Assembly (NCBI GenBank): GCA_031257835.1
Contig: JAIRNY010000016.1
Location: 1 to 55,106 of the forward strand
Length of the DNA stretch: 55,106 nucleotides
Direction of reading: 5' to 3'
Source of the DNA: Candidatus Endomicrobiellum cryptotermitis
Lineage (GTDB): Bacteria > Elusimicrobiota > Endomicrobiia > Endomicrobiales > Endomicrobiaceae
Part shown: one piece after another, positions 2,022 to 15,822 of the stretch
How the letters are laid out: each line of letters opens with the position of its first letter
How positions within the stretch are numbered: the first letter of the stretch is position 1
Translations under genes and position numbers: made by a program
The notes under the pieces: model-generated
The model's database searches: none
The model's input: the letters and a program-made list of their open reading frames with translations, nothing else
What the model was told of the DNA's origin: nothing

Positions 2022-2777
2022 CTAAGCTTCTATTTTTTCCATTTCTTCATTAGAAATGTCAAAATTTGCATAAATATTTTTAACATCATCGTGCTCTTCC
2101 AAGGCGTCCATAAGTTTTAGCATACATTTTGCCTCATCCTCGCTAAGAGCTATTTGGGTTTGTGGTATCATTGTAATTTCACTGGATAAAATTTCTATAT
2201 TTCTATTTTTTAAAGCATTCTTTACAGAGTTTAAATCTGTTGGTGAAGTAATAATTTCGTACGCATCGCTTCCTCCTTCATTTTTAAAGTCTTGTGCACC
2301 TGCTTCTAATGTTAAATTCATTAGAGACTCTTCATCTACTTTAGACTTGCTTACAGTTATATAACCTTTTTTATCAAACATCCAACCTACACAACCTGCC
2401 TCTCCAAGGTTTCCTTTATGGCTTGCAAATATTTTACGTATATCAGAAGCTGTTCTATTTTTGTTATCTGTTGTTACTTCTACAATTAAAGCTACACCAT
2501 TAGGCCCATATCCTTCGTAAACCATTTCTTCATAAATAGCACCTGGTATTTCACCATTCCCTCTTTGGATAGCTTTTTTTATATTATCTTGAGGCATATT
2601 TGCCTCTTTAGCATCTTCTATAGCTTTTCTTAAACGAGCATTATTTTCAATTTGAGGACCACCCTCTTTAGTAGAAACAACAATCTCTCTAATAATTTTT
2701 GTAAAAACTTTACCCTTTTTTGCGTCTGTTGCTGCTTTTTTATGTTTAATACTAGCCCATTTATTATGACCTGACAT
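2022..2777 (-). CDS. yebC: YebC/PmpR-family protein
   Basis: A full-length member (251 residues) of the YebC/TACO1 family, known as DNA-binding regulators and, more recently, as factors that help ribosomes through difficult sequences. The family N terminus MSGHNKWASIKHKK, the acidic middle and the C-terminal negatively charged loop are all present, with no gap. It lies between atpC (24 bases upstream) and ruvC (5 bases downstream). Next to ruvC is its usual neighbourhood. Which of the family roles applies here cannot be told from sequence. Confidence 0.93.
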   Translation of the reverse strand: MSGHNKWASIKHKKAATDAKKGKVFTKIIREIVVSTKEGGPQIENNARLRKAIEDAKEANMPQDNIKKAIQRGNGEIPGAIYEEMVYEGYGPNGVALIVEVTTDNKNRTASDIRKIFASHKGNLGEAGCVGWMFDKKGYITVSKSKVDEESLMNLTLEAGAQDFKNEGGSDAYEIITSPTDLNSVKNALKNRNIEILSSEITMIPQTQIALSEDEAKCMLKLMDALEEHDDVKNIYANFDISNEEMEKIEA

Positions 2778-2800
2778 AATATCTCCTTATTAAACTTTTA

Positions 2801-3220
2801 CTACATTTTTCTACGTCTTAGACCAAGCCCAGATTTAAGTTCTACTACAGATTTTTTAAGTTCAGATTCTATAACAGACATGTCAACAAATTTTTTTCTT
2901 TTTTCTTTCATTGTTCTAGCAAGTTTTATAGCATTTTCTACTTTTTGTTTATTAGCCTCATCTGACTGTGTAGCAAATTCAGCAATGACGTTTACATGAT
3001 TATTTTCTATTTCTATAAAACCGTTAGTTACTGAGAACTTTTTTAAACCTTCGTCAGTAGTGCTAACAACTATTTCACCGTTAATAAGTTTAGTAACAAG
3101 ACTTGTATGGCCTGGCAAAACAGTTATAACTCCGCTAGCTGTAGGGAACGTTGCAGCAAACAGATTGCCTTTAAATAAAACACCTTGAGGTGATAAAATT
3201 TCTATTTCAAATTTGTTCAT
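2801..3220 (-). CDS. atpC: ATP synthase epsilon subunit (F1)
   Basis: Last gene of the F-type ATP synthase set, 11 bases after atpD. The 139-residue protein has the N-terminal beta sandwich (FEIEILSPQG at the start, LPGHTSLVTKL around residue 35) and a C-terminal helical hairpin of normal length with a basic tail (LRRRKM). Epsilon couples the rotor ring to gamma, and its C-terminal helices can inhibit ATP hydrolysis. The hairpin is retained here, so regulation of hydrolysis is still possible. Confidence 0.93.
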   Translation of the reverse strand: MNKFEIEILSPQGVLFKGNLFAATFPTASGVITVLPGHTSLVTKLINGEIVVSTTDEGLKKFSVTNGFIEIENNHVNVIAEFATQSDEANKQKVENAIKLARTMKEKRKKFVDMSVIESELKKSVVELKSGLGLRRRKM

Positions 3221-3231
3221 ATATTTAGTTT

Positions 3232-5474
<2,243 letters not shown>

Positions 5475-8862: not shown

Positions 8863-10971
8863 TTATGTTGGTTTGTCGAGTTTATCTAAAGCAAGTTTAG
8901 CATTTAAATTAGAAGAATTCAAGTCTAAAGCTTTTTTATAAGCCTTTTTTGCATCTATAGGTTTACCCATATGAGTGTATAGTTTACCAAGGTGCATATA
9001 TGTTTGAGAGTATTCTGCTTTACGTCTTTGAGACCAATCTTCTACCCAAAAATTGTGCGGAGGATTTAGTAAGTTTTGTGGGTATTCTAAATGTGATTTT
9101 AAAATTTTTTCAGCTTCACCAAAGTTGCCCGTTTTTACATATAGGCTAGCAAGGGCATAATAAGTTATAGGGTATATTGGATCTATTTCAATATATTGTC
9201 TATAGTATTTTACAGCATTATAAAAAGCGTTAACAAGTTTCTTTTGTTGAGATTCTATAATATTTTTGGATTTCCCCTTAGATATATAATCGTTTATAAG
9301 ATCCATATGCGACAATATTTGCTTTTCATACATTGTACCTGCAATATACTTTGACTGCACATAATTTGGAGCAATAGTCCATAGATCTTTAAAAGCTTGC
9401 TCTGCTTTTAATGGATCACCTGCTTTCCATCTTTCAATATAAGCGCTTGTTTTAAAATACATGGGCATTACAAATGACGGATTATACTTATTTACTTTAT
9501 CAAATGTAGCTATAGCATCTCCAAAGTTTAAAGATTTTGAAAGACCTATAGCTCTAACGTTTAGATAATCTGCAATAAAAAACCTAAACGTAAAGGCTAT
9601 AGCTATCGAAAACATAATTGCGACAATTATTTGCAGTAAAATTTTAACTGGTTTTTTTAGAACATTTACATTATCAAAATTATTTTTTTCATTTAAAATT
9701 CTAATTCTTACAGCGATAGCCAAAGTTAGTCCTATTAATAGCCATAGCATAACTCCAGAAGAAACAAATCTTAAAGATACACATAAACTATCATGTACAA
9801 GTTGCGCCGTAAACGCAGAAGTTACACCTAATTGAAGGTATAAAATAGGTAGCTCTTTAGTACTTTTATTTGAATGTAAAAATGTTATATTTTTATAACC
9901 AACAACAAGAATTAAAATTATAAGGGTTAAAAATACTGATATACCTACTATTCCTTCTTCATACCAAACTTCTAAATATTCATTTTCTGGGTGGTCAGTT
10001 TCTGTATTGTGTTTCTCTTCAATAAAAAATATTTGAGGTCTTCTCCATGAAGGGTAAGTTAAGTAAAAAGTGCCTATACCAGTACCTAAAAAGGGATGTG
10101 TGTTTATCATTTCCCATGTAGAAAGCCAAGTAAAGACTCTAAAAGAAGCACTATCTGTCCTTTCTAAAGTTTTTCGGTATGTACCAAAACCAAAAATTGA
10201 TAAGCCAATAAACAAACCAATAGAGCTAATTATAATATTTTTTTTGTTTAATTTATGACGCAAAAATATAAGAATATATATCACTGAAAACACAAAAAGG
10301 CCTGTCGCAAAACCAATCCAAGCACCTTTAGAACCTGTATTATAAGTACACAACACAATTGCTAGCCATAAAAAAAATAAAAAAACATTTTTTTTATACA
10401 TACACAATGCAAGTACTATAGGGTTCACAACAATTAAAAAATCACCAAAAAAGTTTGGGTTACCAAAAGTAGACATAATTCTATTGCCAAAAGCTCGTCT
10501 CCACGTAAATGGGTCAAAGCCTGGTATAACATAATAGTCCAATATTTGAGCTATACCATAAGAACACACTGTAATAGTTGCTGCTAAAATCCAATTTTTT
10601 AATGTTAAAATTTTTTTATCATCGTTAAATTGATCTATTAAAACAAAAACAAGGCCAGAGTATATAAACCTTTTAGTAAAATCATTTAAACTTGCAAGCT
10701 TAAATGGCGAACAGGCGAGCGAAAATATTCCAGAACACAAAAATAAAATCAATGGGAATATATAAATAAAATTTTTCTTTAATAGTGACAAATTACCTTC
10801 TTCTAATTTTAGAAGAATCCAAGACATAATAATAAAAAGTCCACCAACGTGGAAAATAGTAATTTTTATTTGGGCAGAGTCATAAGTGCCAAGATAAAAA
10901 GATATAGCTATAAAAAAATATAACGCTACAGTACCATATAAAACTATGTTTTCTAGTTTAGTTTTGAACAT
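8863..10971 (-). CDS. O-antigen ligase/polymerase-like membrane protein with C-terminal TPR repeats
   Basis: About 702 residues. The first 430 hold roughly ten membrane helices and the Wzy_C/WaaL-type region, including a GTGIG stretch and a periplasmic loop with the conserved HPENEYLE. The remaining 230 form a soluble tetratricopeptide region; the last repeat (AKKAYKKALDLNSSNLNA) is clear. The family joins or polymerises glycans or transfers them to lipid A or proteins. I choose the ATG at 10971 with AAAGG upstream; the open frame runs to a TTG at 11010, but the promoter -10 box is at 11011-11016, so that TTG would not be transcribed. It is the first gene ahead of the ATP synthase set. Confidence 0.85.
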   Translation of the reverse strand: MFKTKLENIVLYGTVALYFFIAISFYLGTYDSAQIKITIFHVGGLFIIMSWILLKLEEGNLSLLKKNFIYIFPLILFLCSGIFSLACSPFKLASLNDFTKRFIYSGLVFVLIDQFNDDKKILTLKNWILAATITVCSYGIAQILDYYVIPGFDPFTWRRAFGNRIMSTFGNPNFFGDFLIVVNPIVLALCMYKKNVFLFFLWLAIVLCTYNTGSKGAWIGFATGLFVFSVIYILIFLRHKLNKKNIIISSIGLFIGLSIFGFGTYRKTLERTDSASFRVFTWLSTWEMINTHPFLGTGIGTFYLTYPSWRRPQIFFIEEKHNTETDHPENEYLEVWYEEGIVGISVFLTLIILILVVGYKNITFLHSNKSTKELPILYLQLGVTSAFTAQLVHDSLCVSLRFVSSGVMLWLLIGLTLAIAVRIRILNEKNNFDNVNVLKKPVKILLQIIVAIMFSIAIAFTFRFFIADYLNVRAIGLSKSLNFGDAIATFDKVNKYNPSFVMPMYFKTSAYIERWKAGDPLKAEQAFKDLWTIAPNYVQSKYIAGTMYEKQILSHMDLINDYISKGKSKNIIESQQKKLVNAFYNAVKYYRQYIEIDPIYPITYYALASLYVKTGNFGEAEKILKSHLEYPQNLLNPPHNFWVEDWSQRRKAEYSQTYMHLGKLYTHMGKPIDAKKAYKKALDLNSSNLNAKLALDKLDKPT

Positions 10972-11054: not shown

Positions 11055-12410
11055 TTATAAGTCTTTGTAAAATACTACACTCTCTCTTCCATTATTTTTT
11101 ACTTTATATAATGCAACGTCAGCAGTGTTAATTATTGCGTTTACTTCTAAGTTATCTTTTGAATTGCAACTTATCCCAATACTTGCTGTAACGTTAAATT
11201 TTTCATTATTTTCTTCAAAGAAATTATTTTTTAAAGATTTATTAATGTTATTTGCTATAAGTAAAATTTCTTTTTTAGGTAAATTGGGGACAAATATTAT
11301 AAACTCATCACCTCCATATCTGCCAACCAAACTATCATTTCCTACACAAGACAGAATAACTTTAGTAATTTCTATTAGAACTTTATCGCCGATTAAATGG
11401 CCATACTTATCGTTTACATTTTTGAAGTTGTCTAAATCCACCATCAAAATATAAAACCTATCTTCATAGTATTTAGTTCTTTGAATTTCAGATTTTAATT
11501 TCTCTAGAAAGTAAGATCTTAATAGTAGACCAGTTAAAGAATCAATTCTTGATTTTTGTCTTATATCGTTAAAGATATTTGTTCTTTTTAAACCTAAAGC
11601 AAAGTGAGAAGCAAAAATAGAGCCATCTTTTATATATTTTGCTTCTAAATCTTTTTTTATAACAATAAACATACAACCTAATACATTACTTTCAATAAGC
11701 ATTGGAAAATATAAAATGCTAAAGTACTGTTTATTAAATTCTTTGTTATCTATAGCATAACAGATAGTTTCATTATTAGTTAATTTAATGGATTCTATAA
11801 AAGAAGCTAAATCATTGCCTTGTAAAATGCCAGAAACAGATAGTTTTTTCCATCCAGACGAAACTTTTTCTAAGATAGCTCCACCAAAAACCCCATAGTC
11901 TTGACTAAAAAAGTCTAAAATTAAATTTACATATTCTTGTTTTGATGTAATTGTAGATAATTTAGCATCTAAAGCATATAATTTAGATAATCTTTGCATG
12001 TCTTCTTCATATTCTTTTTTTGTTTTTATAGATTGTTGATATTCTATAAAAACTTCTCCATACTCATTTTTTAATGCATCTCTTTTTTTGATTAAGTTTG
12101 TTTTTAATTTTCTTAATTTTATATTTACATAATATGGAAATGGTATCAAAGAAATAAAAATTAAGCACATCAAAAATGACATGAAGGAAAAATTTCTTGC
12201 AATAAACATAAGGATACAACATGCAAGGATTGAAGAAAAAATAATAGAGCTTGTAAAGTATAATGAATAATAAAAGCCCACTAAAACCATAAAGCTTACC
12301 CATATTATAATGGCACCACCAAAAGACGGTACTACAAAATACAAACATACTACTATAAGAATTATATATATTAATTTTAGTATTCTTTTATCAATAGTTA
12401 TATTTTTCAA
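11055..12410 (-). CDS. Membrane GAF-GGDEF protein (probable diguanylate cyclase) without I-site
   Basis: Predicted to make cyclic di-GMP from two GTP. Four to five membrane helices occupy about residues 10-100, a short coiled region follows, then a GAF-like sensor domain (about 140-280) and a C-terminal GGDEF domain (about 290-450). The active loop is intact: GRYGGDEFIIF. The upstream inhibitory site, usually RxxD five residues before, reads VGND, so product feedback should be lost. The start is a TTG at 12410 preceded by GGAAG at 8 bases; it overlaps the end of the previous GGDEF gene by 20 bases, implying translational coupling. No EAL or HD-GYP phosphodiesterase is in the window. Confidence 0.88.
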   Translation of the reverse strand: MKNITIDKRILKLIYIILIVVCLYFVVPSFGGAIIIWVSFMVLVGFYYSLYFTSSIIFSSILACCILMFIARNFSFMSFLMCLIFISLIPFPYYVNIKLRKLKTNLIKKRDALKNEYGEVFIEYQQSIKTKKEYEEDMQRLSKLYALDAKLSTITSKQEYVNLILDFFSQDYGVFGGAILEKVSSGWKKLSVSGILQGNDLASFIESIKLTNNETICYAIDNKEFNKQYFSILYFPMLIESNVLGCMFIVIKKDLEAKYIKDGSIFASHFALGLKRTNIFNDIRQKSRIDSLTGLLLRSYFLEKLKSEIQRTKYYEDRFYILMVDLDNFKNVNDKYGHLIGDKVLIEITKVILSCVGNDSLVGRYGGDEFIIFVPNLPKKEILLIANNINKSLKNNFFEENNEKFNVTASIGISCNSKDNLEVNAIINTADVALYKVKNNGRESVVFYKDL

Positions 12411-13791
12411 TTCTATTTCTTCCTAATTTTTTTGCTTTATAAAGAGCTTTATCAGAATTTTCTATACACTCTTCAATGTTTAAGTTAACGTTTTGTTTAG
12501 TTAGCGATACAAAACCAAAACTTGCAGTTATGTTTATACTAACAGGGGAAAATTTTTCTAACGGTAAGTAAAATTTTGTTTTTTCTATAGACAATCTTAC
12601 TTTTTCTAGTATTTTCAAAGCATCATCAGCATTAGTATTTATCATTATAAAGGAAAATTCATCACCACCATATCTAGCAATAATATCTGCTTCTCTAAAT
12701 ATTGAACGTAAAATTGATACAAGTTGTCGTAAAACTGAATCTGCTGCTATATGTCCATAGCTGTCATTAATACTTTTAAAAAAATCTATATCTAAAATAC
12801 CAAGCGTTAAAGGTACCTTGCTTATTTTTGCTCTCTTTAATTCTTCGTTAAGCCGTTCTTTAAAAAAATCTTGTCTATAACATCCTGTGATGTCATCAGT
12901 AATAGCAAGAGTTCTAAGTTTTTCATATAAGTAATAATTGTCAATTATTTTGCTTATGCTTAACGAAAATAGAGATAACTTTTCTACATCTTCATTATAA
13001 AAAAAATTGTTTATATATGAAAATCCTTCTATAGTTCCCCAAAACATACCATTAACTGCTATCCTAACAGCTAGTATAGACTTTTTTTTACTGTTTTTTA
13101 TATTAAAGCGTTCGTCCTTAGCTAAATCATTTACTATTAAAGCCGTATTTTCCTTTATTATATAATTTGCAAAAGTATCATCTTCTTTATATTTTTGTAG
13201 TTTCCAACTTCCTTTACCCATAAAATTAATAGCTCTATCTTCAATCTTTAAAAATAAGTCATTTTCATTAGAAAATACCTGAAAAGACTGTATAATATTA
13301 CCAAGATTAACAAAATTTTCAATTCTTTTGGACAGTTTTTTTATCTCTAGATTGTTTTTTAAAATTTTGTTCTTTTTTAACATTATATCAAGTAAAATAT
13401 TATTGTTTTCAGCTAGCAATTTATTTTCAATTTTTTTATACCTATTTTGGTACATTTCAAAAATTATATATAACAATATAAGAGCTATACATTCAAAAGA
13501 AACTAACCTAGATCGAAAACGAATAAGTATGGGAAATTCTGCTGAGTTAACAACAAAAGCCATAGTATATATAAATGCTACAACCACAGCTAAGCAAGTT
13601 ATGGTTCTAGCATAATTACTTTTAAAAAAATAACATAAAGCTATTATTGGTAGTGTTATTATAGGAAAATTTATAAGGATATTATTAGGTAAAATCAACG
13701 CCCAAACAATAAAGAATACTCCCAGAATAATAGGGAAGCACACTTTCAATATATGTTTAATCTTAGAATTTTTTAAAGAATCATTTTTCAT
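12391..13791 (-). CDS. Membrane GAF-GGDEF protein (probable diguanylate cyclase) with I-site
   Basis: Same layout as its downstream neighbour: several N-terminal membrane helices (to about residue 115), a coiled coil, a GAF-like domain (about 170-300) and a C-terminal GGDEF domain. The active loop ARYGGDEFSFIM is intact and is preceded by READ, a good RxxD inhibitory site. The pair may be an ancient duplication. I take the ATG at 13791; AGGAG lies very close (two bases before it). The open frame extends to a TTG at 13812 that has no ribosome-binding site. The 5' end overlaps the preceding gene by 11 bases. Confidence 0.88.
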   Translation of the reverse strand: MKNDSLKNSKIKHILKVCFPIILGVFFIVWALILPNNILINFPIITLPIIALCYFFKSNYARTITCLAVVVAFIYTMAFVVNSAEFPILIRFRSRLVSFECIALILLYIIFEMYQNRYKKIENKLLAENNNILLDIMLKKNKILKNNLEIKKLSKRIENFVNLGNIIQSFQVFSNENDLFLKIEDRAINFMGKGSWKLQKYKEDDTFANYIIKENTALIVNDLAKDERFNIKNSKKKSILAVRIAVNGMFWGTIEGFSYINNFFYNEDVEKLSLFSLSISKIIDNYYLYEKLRTLAITDDITGCYRQDFFKERLNEELKRAKISKVPLTLGILDIDFFKSINDSYGHIAADSVLRQLVSILRSIFREADIIARYGGDEFSFIMINTNADDALKILEKVRLSIEKTKFYLPLEKFSPVSINITASFGFVSLTKQNVNLNIEECIENSDKALYKAKKLGRNRIEKYNY

Positions 13792-14323
13792 AACTCCTAG
13801 TATAGTCGACAATCAGTTTTGTTTCAACTTCTTTTTGTAAACTTTTATTTACAAATTTAAAATTTTTAACCCATTTGTTGTTAATTTTAGTACTGGGCCA
13901 GGCTATCCATAAGCCACTTTTCCCTTGCATTATACGACACTCTACCTCAATTTCATTATCGAAAATTACAGAAGCAAAAGCTCTAACAGTAGTATTATTT
14001 TTTAACTTATATAACTTGTTGATGTTAAAGGAGGATATACTTCCAATATTGTTAAAAACTTTGTTTTTTAGCAAAGAATCTTTTAAATATGCTTTAAAAT
14101 CTCTTTTTAATACGAAAATCTGTTTGTATTGTTTATTTTTTGATTTGTATATTGGAAATTTTAATTCATTATCTTGTAGCTCTACATTTAAAATTTGAAT
14201 ACTATTGTTTAAAGTTATACTAAATTTGTTGTTTTTCGTTGAAATTTCAGTAATTTTTAAACTAGCAAATGCACAATCAAAAAAGATTATAATAGTAAGA
14301 GAAAGTGGAAAAAACCTCACCAT
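13781..14323 (-). CDS. Exported protein with two SpoVG-like halves
   Basis: 180 residues beginning with a signal peptide (basic start MVRF, hydrophobic core, probable cleavage after AFA near residue 20). The rest looks like two tandem SpoVG folds. The first spans about residues 21-90 (LNNSIQILNVELQDN, then LKRDFKAYLKDSL). The second spans about 105-178 and is the clearer match: RAFASVIFDNEIEVE, then QGKSGLWIAWPS and a basic tail VNKSLQKEVE. SpoVG proteins elsewhere are cytoplasmic nucleic-acid binders affecting septation and gene expression, so an exported double form is unusual. It is coupled to the downstream GGDEF gene and follows the CpXC gene by 19 bases. The fold assignment is by eye. 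Confidence 0.6.
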   Translation of the reverse strand: MVRFFPLSLTIIIFFDCAFASLKITEISTKNNKFSITLNNSIQILNVELQDNELKFPIYKSKNKQYKQIFVLKRDFKAYLKDSLLKNKVFNNIGSISSFNINKLYKLKNNTTVRAFASVIFDNEIEVECRIMQGKSGLWIAWPSTKINNKWVKNFKFVNKSLQKEVETKLIVDYTRSYEK

Positions 14324-14342
14324 ATTTACTCGATAGCCTTGG

Positions 14343-14939
14343 TTATTTCTGTAAACATATTTTTATATTTTGATATCTTTTAAAAAAATCAATATAATGT
14401 TCAAGATTTGGATTATGTTTTATTAGATCTTCTAAACCTGAAAGTAAAGATTTTTCACTGAAATCTTGACTGTTTTTATAAAAAGGCATAAGTTTTGGTA
14501 TAGCTAACTTTCTAGCAATACTTGGAGTTATTTTTACAATATTTAGCTTAAGATTGCTAGCTAAATGTATTAAAATAGCTTCCTCATCTTCTATACCAAA
14601 CAGCAATACTGGTTCATAAGTAATTTTATTTTTGTCATTAAAATTTTCCAAAGCTAGTTTAAATTCCTTTTTCATTTTAGCCACGCATTGTGTTGCTTGC
14701 TCTTGAAAACTTCGGGGATATACAAAAGATATAAGCTCATTTTGACTGTCGTGATAGAGGATAAAACATTCAGCATAAAACATTTGCCCACATTCTGGGC
14801 ATGTAACAAGATTTATTTCTCCAGCAATTAAAGCTTCTTTGAGTTCATAGTTATCAGAGACACTTATCGCTGAAAGTAATTGTGTTTGGAAAGTATGGCT
14901 TTTAGGACATTTAATCTCTTCTAAATTTGAAATCGTCAT
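14343..14939 (-). CDS. CpXC-domain-like protein with a degenerate metal site
   Basis: 198 residues. The N-terminal 60 match the CpXC domain pattern: a first knuckle CPKSH where CPxC is expected, the spacer SDNYELKEALIAGEINL, and an intact second knuckle TCPECGQMF. One of the four cysteines is therefore lost. The remaining 140 residues are a helical region I do not recognise. CpXC proteins have no established function. First gene of a four-gene minus-strand cluster with the SpoVG-like and the two GGDEF genes. A TATAAT lies 18-23 bases upstream, but with no good -35. Confidence 0.7.
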   Translation of the reverse strand: MTISNLEEIKCPKSHTFQTQLLSAISVSDNYELKEALIAGEINLVTCPECGQMFYAECFILYHDSQNELISFVYPRSFQEQATQCVAKMKKEFKLALENFNDKNKITYEPVLLFGIEDEEAILIHLASNLKLNIVKITPSIARKLAIPKLMPFYKNSQDFSEKSLLSGLEDLIKHNPNLEHYIDFFKRYQNIKICLQK

Positions 14940-14956
14940 TTTTTTTATTTTATCAA

Positions 14957-14962
14957 ATTATA
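14957..14962 (-). promoter_or_regulatory. Possible -10 box for the CpXC-SpoVG-GGDEF cluster
   Basis: A perfect TATAAT on the minus strand lies 18 bases before the CpXC start codon. The sequence 17-18 bases further up (AAGCTC region) does not resemble TTGACA, so the assignment rests on the -10 and its position only. The rest of the divergent gap up to the plus-strand ATPase remnant shows nothing more that I can name except a short run of ATAC repeats near 15116-15130. Confidence 0.3.
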
Positions 14963-15143
14963 CAAAAGCTTAGCAATAAGAGCTTAGAAAGACTCCTATC
15001 CCTTCAAAAAATGATATTATATAGCAGTTAAATTGAAAATAAGAACTGGGATTGTTATCTGTCTTTGTCATGAATCAGATCCTTTTTTGGTAATATAAAT
15101 GGAACGGGAACGTAGATACATACATACATAAAGGAAGTTCAAT

Positions 15144-15822
15144 ATACTTACTCACGGACTGGAAAAGAGTTCCTATCTTTACAATTTGCCTGTTGTTCAA
15201 TATTTACTGTCTGGCAACAAAATAGTATTTAATAAAGATGTTGTGTTTTTTGTAGGTGAAAATGGTTCTGGAAAATCCACATTAATTGAAGCTATTGCTA
15301 TATGTTTTGGATTTAATGCTGAAGGCGGTTCGCAAAATTTTAATTTTGCAACTCGCAATACTGAATCTGAATTGTTTAAACATATAAAAATAATAAAATC
15401 GGCTTTTCCTAAAGATGGTTACTTTTTGCGGGCAGAGAGTTTTTATAATGTTGCTTCAAATATTGATGGGCAAAAATCATATGGAAGTCGTAGTTTACAT
15501 GAACAATCCCACGGTGAAAGTTTCTTTACACTATTTCAAGAGAGATTTTGGGGAAACGGTCTTTATATACTTGATGAGCCAGAAGCTGCATTGTCGCCAT
15601 CAAGACAAAGGTCTTTATTAGTTAAAATAGATGAATTAGTTAAACAAAATTCTCAATTTATTATTGTAACACTTTTTCCAATTGTGCTTGCATATCCTCA
15701 TGCAACTATATTTGAATTAAAAGATTCAAATATAACAGAAATCTCTTTTGAAGAAACAGAAATTTATAAAGTGTATAAACACTAATGAGCCTAAACAAAT
15801 GTTAAGACATCTTTTAGATTGA
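15144..15822 (+). pseudogene. Decayed AAA/ABC-type ATPase, only real gene remnant on the plus strand
   Basis: Matches the family of about 240-residue predicted ATPases with P-loop GENGSGKSTLIEAIA, signature SLHEQSHGESFF and Walker B LYILDEPEAALSP. Three signs of decay are seen. Family-like N-terminal sequence (YLYNLPVVQ) extends upstream of the first usable start (TTG 15186) to an ATA at 15144 that sits six bases after AGGAAG. The switch His after Walker B is lost: THSP has become TLFP. A one-base shift at the 3' end breaks off the tail, which continues in the next frame as NEPKQMLRHLLD to a stop at 15820-15822. The family is often found as an orphan ATPase and its role is not established. 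Confidence 0.75.

Follow-up and report, generated by a model that had tools for sequence, protein, structure and literature searches.

Proteins of the SpoVG family (PF04026), with structures from Bacillus subtilis (2ia9) and Staphylococcus epidermidis (2i9x/2i9z), are known as cytoplasmic, single-domain, site-specific DNA-binding proteins, and in Staphylococcus aureus both residues of a K50-R51 doublet are required for DNA binding (PMC3688583). Diguanylate cyclases that combine a GAF-like domain, a coiled coil and a GGDEF domain with catalytic residues are exemplified by DcsBis (4zmu); in the YfiBNR system the gene for a small periplasmic protein stands directly alongside that for a membrane diguanylate cyclase (PMC2837407, PMC3375315); and the MshEN-containing PilB/MshE ATPases are known receptors of cyclic dimeric guanosine monophosphate (c-di-GMP) (PMC5013675). 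Here we describe a locus from Candidatus Endomicrobiellum cryptotermitis (Elusimicrobiota), whose genus (g1 in what follows) comprises intracellular symbionts of termite gut flagellates (PMC11257099). The locus encodes a predicted exported protein with two SpoVG domains (SVG), two GGDEF proteins (DGC1 and DGC2) and a CpXC-domain protein. The window, that is, the whole stretch of 55,106 nucleotides that was analysed (JAIRNY010000016.1, our contig C11), belongs to a 28-contig, 1.05-Mb, 87%-complete genome, and the genes occupy these positions in it:

14343..14939, minus strand: CpXC-domain protein (PF14353), 198 amino acids, Pfam score 53.7 bits; apparently a late neighbour, partly degraded
13781..14323, minus strand: SVG, 180 amino acids, recognised by Pfam SpoVG, an AlphaFold2 model, Foldseek and hhalign; putative signal peptide at residues ~1-20, SpoVG-like domain 1 at ~22-88, SpoVG domain 2 at ~98-179
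12391..13791, minus strand: DGC1, 466 amino acids, four predicted transmembrane helices, coiled coil, GAF and GGDEF (122.7 bits for GGDEF)
11055..12410, minus strand: DGC2, 451 amino acids, four predicted transmembrane helices, coiled coil, GAF-like domain and GGDEF (149.1 bits for GGDEF)

The open reading frames given in a preliminary description of this DNA hold, as do its 19-bp gap and its two overlaps (11 and 20 bp), when DGC1 is read from the ATG at 13791 (a longer alternative from a TTG at 13812 is also open) and DGC2 from the TTG at 12410, which has AGGAAG 8 nt upstream. The families it named were also recovered, all of them over the Pfam cut-offs.

SVG, DGC1 and DGC2 form a conserved three-gene module of the order Endomicrobiales that is old relative to its CpXC neighbour. 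This was seen in a family survey, in which CpXC and SpoVG profiles were run against 77 genomes and flanking DNA was compared by BLAST and clustering, and in a phylum survey, in which an SVG profile was run against 341 Elusimicrobiota genomes and the loci around matches were compared; 42 genomes of g1 were surveyed. The genomes are mainly metagenome-assembled, so that lone frameshifts or absent genes could be assembly faults. In the other genera of the family the trio was found with order and orientation unchanged, and for the most part with overlapping genes, at 21 of the 21 loci where the cyclase pair and its upstream side were readable (G044-G050, G052, G055, G057, G060-G065, G067-G069, G071, G072). 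The flanks of these loci vary by genus, including an ABC-type ATPase with malic enzyme, a phosphoenolpyruvate-utilising enzyme and others, and the trio is therefore not merely frozen synteny. The three genes are neighbours in most genera of the family, and four further families of the order encode them too, with the genes adjacent in G322 and G323, one membrane-protein gene between them in G324, and a partial set in G326.

The conserved neighbourhood does not extend to CpXC, which adjoins SVG only in g1; in other genera it lies on a different contig or, in the closed 1.59-Mb genome G047, ~37 kb away. Its neighbours there, named from their sequences, are presumably a small membrane protein followed by an M50 protease/trpS/scpA/scpB, or efflux genes. 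The window's protein matches the CpXC profile over residues 9-91, and it differs from the described family in two respects, a first Cys knuckle that is degenerate throughout g1 (CPKSH in the window's copy, against mostly C-x-CG in other genera) and a truncated, internally deleted copy. Compared with G012, G017 and G018, it carries a 39-bp in-frame deletion at ~14592 (the lost stretch reads EDLVSLLRREQDI in G012), a G14S change at the first knuckle, and a 1-bp deletion at ~14377, which puts the final ~17 codons out of frame and accounts for the 19-bp gap to SVG. The statement that all four genes are intact thus fails for CpXC. Ratios of nonsynonymous to synonymous substitution rates (dN/dS, Nei-Gojobori) divide the genes likewise: across all comparisons they were well under 1 for SVG (0.18-0.29), DGC1 (0.24-0.37) and DGC2 (0.24-0.36), whereas CpXC gave 0.45-0.52 against the nearest relatives, G012 and G017, and 0.13-0.14 in longer comparisons. 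SVG and both cyclases are accordingly intact genes under purifying selection, and CpXC reads as a probable passenger that came to sit upstream of SVG in g1, outside the module, and is apparently decaying here.

Several lines of evidence identify SVG as a predicted exported, tandem SpoVG protein, as the preliminary description had proposed. It begins with a putative Sec-type signal (MVRFFPLSLTIIIFFDCAFA, followed by S at the candidate cleavage site), which has one hydrophobic segment and a cleavage-like A-x-A that is mostly conserved in an alignment of 40 orthologues. The AlphaFold2 model built from this alignment has a mean predicted local distance difference test score (pLDDT) of 88.7 and shows the same order of strands and helices twice, at residues 24-85 and 99-179, and the seven best Foldseek matches in the PDB are all SpoVG, with probability 1.00. 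The C-terminal half matches Pfam SpoVG at 47.8 bits (cut-off 29.6), as do 40 of 40 relatives at E <= 0.01; the N-terminal half is not recognised by Pfam, and hhalign aligns the two halves over 66 columns (E 7.8e-6, probability 84%). Model, structure search and half-against-half comparison thus agree on a predicted duplication. SVG differs from canonical SpoVG, whose fold it would contain twice, in its predicted export, in the fusion of two domains and in the absence of the conserved K/R-R/K doublet. Positions 145-146, equivalent to K50-R51 of S. aureus, are both basic in 3 of 40 orthologues, so the doublet is missing in 37; canonical SpoVG from three genomes of the family reads PSRK or PSKK there. 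W139 is invariant among the orthologues, and C129 and W142 are nearly so.

Two further observations concern SpoVG genes. A canonical spoVG is split across two frames in the closed genome G047 (C1:1446254-1446501), and canonical SpoVG was found neither in g1 nor elsewhere in genus g3. At L209 (G332), two exported tandem-SpoVG genes follow each other, at 1618-2250 and 2762-3385.

Both cyclases have hydrophobic N termini and complete GGDEF and DxDxFKxxND...H..[GA]D motifs, and the catalytic D/N/D and GG[D/E]EF residues are kept in their orthologues. The optional RxxD I-site, which serves product inhibition, is retained as READ in DGC1 and has been lost from DGC2 in the clade that includes the window's genome. 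A GAF domain was found in 20 of 24 DGC1 orthologues. The AlphaFold2 model of DGC2 (pLDDT 83.9) predicts four N-terminal helices, a long coiled coil, an alpha/beta GAF-like domain and GGDEF, and its best Foldseek matches are sensor-GGDEF enzymes, e.g. 5llw and 4zmu. The GAF-like domain, the coiled coil and the GGDEF domain with catalytic residues are shared with GAF-GGDEF cyclases such as DcsBis, from which DGC1 and DGC2 differ in being membrane-anchored (by prediction) and paired, as two distinct orthologous groups that genomes retain or lose jointly. Genomes of g1 have zero GGDEF matches or exactly two, G019 and G042 excepted. Synthesis of cyclic GMP-AMP of the Hypr type was considered and is disfavoured, as the Asp in the HxxGD stretch is present in DGC1 and DGC2 alike, which would speak against it.

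DGC1 and DGC2 are the only GGDEF proteins of the window's genome, and profile searches of this genome for PilZ, MshEN and EAL found none. Its only HD-GYP gene is split by a frameshift (G000:C20:74740-75226; L250, minus strand, ~2693-3380); its counterparts in G012 and G017 have uninterrupted frames (239 and 245 amino acids), yet are shorter than the 410-430 amino acids of other genera. PilZ and MshEN are absent from all g1 genomes, save for one marginal PilZ match, and were found in many other genera. A 697-amino-acid pilus-type ATPase without an MshEN domain is present (L245, G000:C4), and we take its neighbours to resemble tadB/tadC and cpaB, as for an ATPase of the Tad/Flp type. In g1, SVG and the Tad-type ATPase were strongly associated over all genomes but not significantly in those of at least 1.0 Mb, and this was set aside as an effect of genome reduction. 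In g1 genomes at least 80% complete the cyclase pair is associated with the presence of HD-GYP, and also when only genomes of 1.0 Mb or more are taken (p = 0.0075; the genomes are related to one another, which makes this and the p-values below a rough guide only). A search for c-di-GMP-I riboswitches gave no match, but control genomes were equally blank.

Elsewhere in the phylum, SVG recurs beside genes of c-di-GMP signalling. In families f16, f21 and f29, outside the order, it lies close upstream of DUF192 and an MshEN-PilB ATPase, so that the known receptor absent from g1 is found near SVG in other Elusimicrobiota, and at L219 (G334), also outside the order, it adjoins a PilZ gene; within the order, SVG of G324 (L197) stands directly behind a PAS-PAS-HD-GYP gene. 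An idea derived from gene sizes, that SVG is a minor component of the type IV pilus at the PilP position (L230-L238), was rejected when annotation gave EF-P, a HAD hydrolase, a subtilase, DUF192 and MshEN-PilB, and only the proximity of SVG to PilB remains.

The best explanation of these data as a whole, to which we assign a probability of roughly 0.45, is that SVG is the periplasmic input partner of the paired membrane cyclases, a remnant of pilus or surface control. Conservation of the SVG-cyclase neighbourhood, low dN/dS and complete catalytic motifs make a joint signalling role reasonable for these three genes; the preliminary description had extended it to all four, and CpXC stands outside the module. 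We infer the periplasmic location of SVG, its contact with the cyclases, the signal itself, production of c-di-GMP and the link to pili. The tandem SpoVG protein would sit in the periplasm or on the surface, sense the state of the envelope or surface, and report it to one or both cyclases through the four helices that anchor them in the membrane. Probably acting as a pair, the cyclases would then set the c-di-GMP level. In free-living relatives, the targets of c-di-GMP would be PilZ proteins and the MshEN domain carried by a pilus or secretion ATPase, and in Ca. Endomicrobiellum the module would be a shrinking remnant, with receptors gone genus-wide, HD-GYP broken here, and cyclases, SVG and CpXC dropped separately. 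The likeness to YfiBNR is one of logic, not homology: in both, the gene for a small periplasmic protein (here by prediction) is directly coupled to one for a membrane diguanylate cyclase, but SVG has the SpoVG fold, and there are two cyclases here, with short transmembrane loops. YfiR presumably has a different fold from SVG, and YfiN, as we assume, a periplasmic sensor domain; the third component, YfiB, is an outer-membrane lipoprotein.

Several results weigh against SVG as the cyclases' input partner. The predicted periplasmic loops of the cyclases are short, without a large periplasmic domain, and offer no evident surface for binding SVG. SVG loci in families f7-f11 of the class have no recognised c-di-GMP gene nearby, bar one distant HD-GYP-like match, so the link between SVG and c-di-GMP is recurrent rather than universal. 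Within g1, SVG is found without cyclases in 6 of the 42 genomes (G004, G015, G020, G021, G022, G043) and cyclases without SVG in 3 (G005, G006, G013), and among g1 genomes of 80% completeness or more the presence of SVG is not significantly associated with that of the cyclases (Fisher p = 0.25). Genera g5, g7 and g9 also keep SVG without cyclases, and since it persists in this way SVG must have a role of its own. The same separate losses undercut the argument, made at the outset, that a decaying genome keeps all four genes. In G018, SVG and the cyclases lie on separate contigs, and fragments of CpXC or SVG were seen in G007, G008, G016, G019, G021 and G040.

These points lead to another explanation, possible in our judgement if doubtful, that SVG works in the envelope independently, for instance as an assembly or surface-anchoring factor of the Elusimicrobiota, and shares a transcript with the cyclases without regulating them. 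Across the phylum SVG is common at loci that lack GGDEF genes, it outlasts the cyclases in at least six g1 genomes, including G043 and G004, both 99% complete, and a polytopic membrane protein follows it in several families. Such a protein would not be expected to keep strict order, orientation and overlap with a cyclase pair throughout an order in which the flanks change, nor to be found repeatedly close to other c-di-GMP genes.

Input to the cyclases could also be a thing of the past in this species, the module being a relic on its way out, perhaps expressed, without a working c-di-GMP circuit. The missing PilZ, MshEN and EAL, the frameshifted HD-GYP gene, the loss of the DGC2 I-site in the window's clade and cyclase pseudogenes in relatives (L074, L079) would all suit a relic. 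We nevertheless consider it unlikely, as SVG and the cyclases are open, catalytic motifs are intact, and dN/dS against the two nearest relatives is 0.18-0.32, unlike free decay.

That all four genes, CpXC included, are a single signalling operon with a joint function, which was the earlier idea, now seems quite improbable. Most g1 genomes that keep both CpXC and SVG have them side by side or overlapping, and the joint retention of the two genes in genomes at least 80% complete is pronounced (17/3/1/8, p = 3e-4), but it is not significant at 1.0 Mb or more (p = 0.19), and linked deletion can therefore explain it. The location of CpXC elsewhere in all other genera, its degenerate first knuckle in g1 and the damage to the window's copy also speak against such an operon. 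Finally, SVG has the fold and the Pfam match of an ordinary SpoVG-type nucleic-acid binder, which would make its N-terminal hydrophobic stretch no signal peptide, but this is barely credible given the signal-like N terminus with its retained A-x-A, a relative (L200) that reads as a lipoprotein (MLTACG), and a DNA-binding doublet that is not conserved.

The domains described here are already known; what is new is the combination of an exported tandem SpoVG protein with a cyclase pair. In agreement with the preliminary description, the literature searched reports no exported or tandem SpoVG and no SpoVG-cyclase operon, and c-di-GMP is not mentioned in the main text of the study on genome reduction in Endomicrobia. 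SpoVG being known as a cytoplasmic DNA-binding protein, a phylum-wide tandem form without the DNA-contact residues points to re-use of the fold outside the cytoplasm and suggests that the SpoVG fold also works outside the cell. Strict coupling to two cyclases in Endomicrobiales makes the role of the exported SpoVG a testable claim. Only tentatively would we go further and propose a new class of extracytoplasmic tandem SpoVG proteins, serving as cyclase input across Endomicrobiales and with a broader part in c-di-GMP and type IV pilus functions in Elusimicrobiota. The genus g1 also offers a natural series in the stepwise dismantling of c-di-GMP signalling in endosymbiosis, with receptors gone everywhere and phosphodiesterase, cyclases and SVG lost in varying combinations.

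Directly downstream of SVG in families f4, f13, f18, f19 and f27 we found a polytopic protein with seven transmembrane helices (263-320 amino acids, motif TRPxQILxGPHPxPLIxNNIREF; loci L197/L220, L222, L228, L229 and L233). Three of these proteins were tested, and no Pfam family exceeded its cut-off. A relationship between this protein and the membrane part of DGC1 was not accepted (29 columns, probability 26%).

Beyond the four genes, an ATP-binding (ABC/AAA-type) protein of 199 amino acids lies beside CpXC at 15186-15785 on the plus strand, without a counterpart at the loci of the relatives compared. Two further features of the minus strand flank the locus:

14947..14976, minus strand: weak sigma-70-like promoter match 5' of CpXC (9 of 12 positions)
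8863..10971, minus strand: O-antigen-ligase/TPR membrane protein directly 3' of DGC2, identified by Pfam and neighbourhood comparison

Sigma-70-like matches occur in the region at chance level (34 found, 29.7 expected from shuffles). The O-antigen-ligase-like gene, a neighbour only in the nearest relatives, starts 44-84 bp past DGC2 on the same strand; judging by this spacing, it may share the transcript, and the operon could extend beyond four genes.

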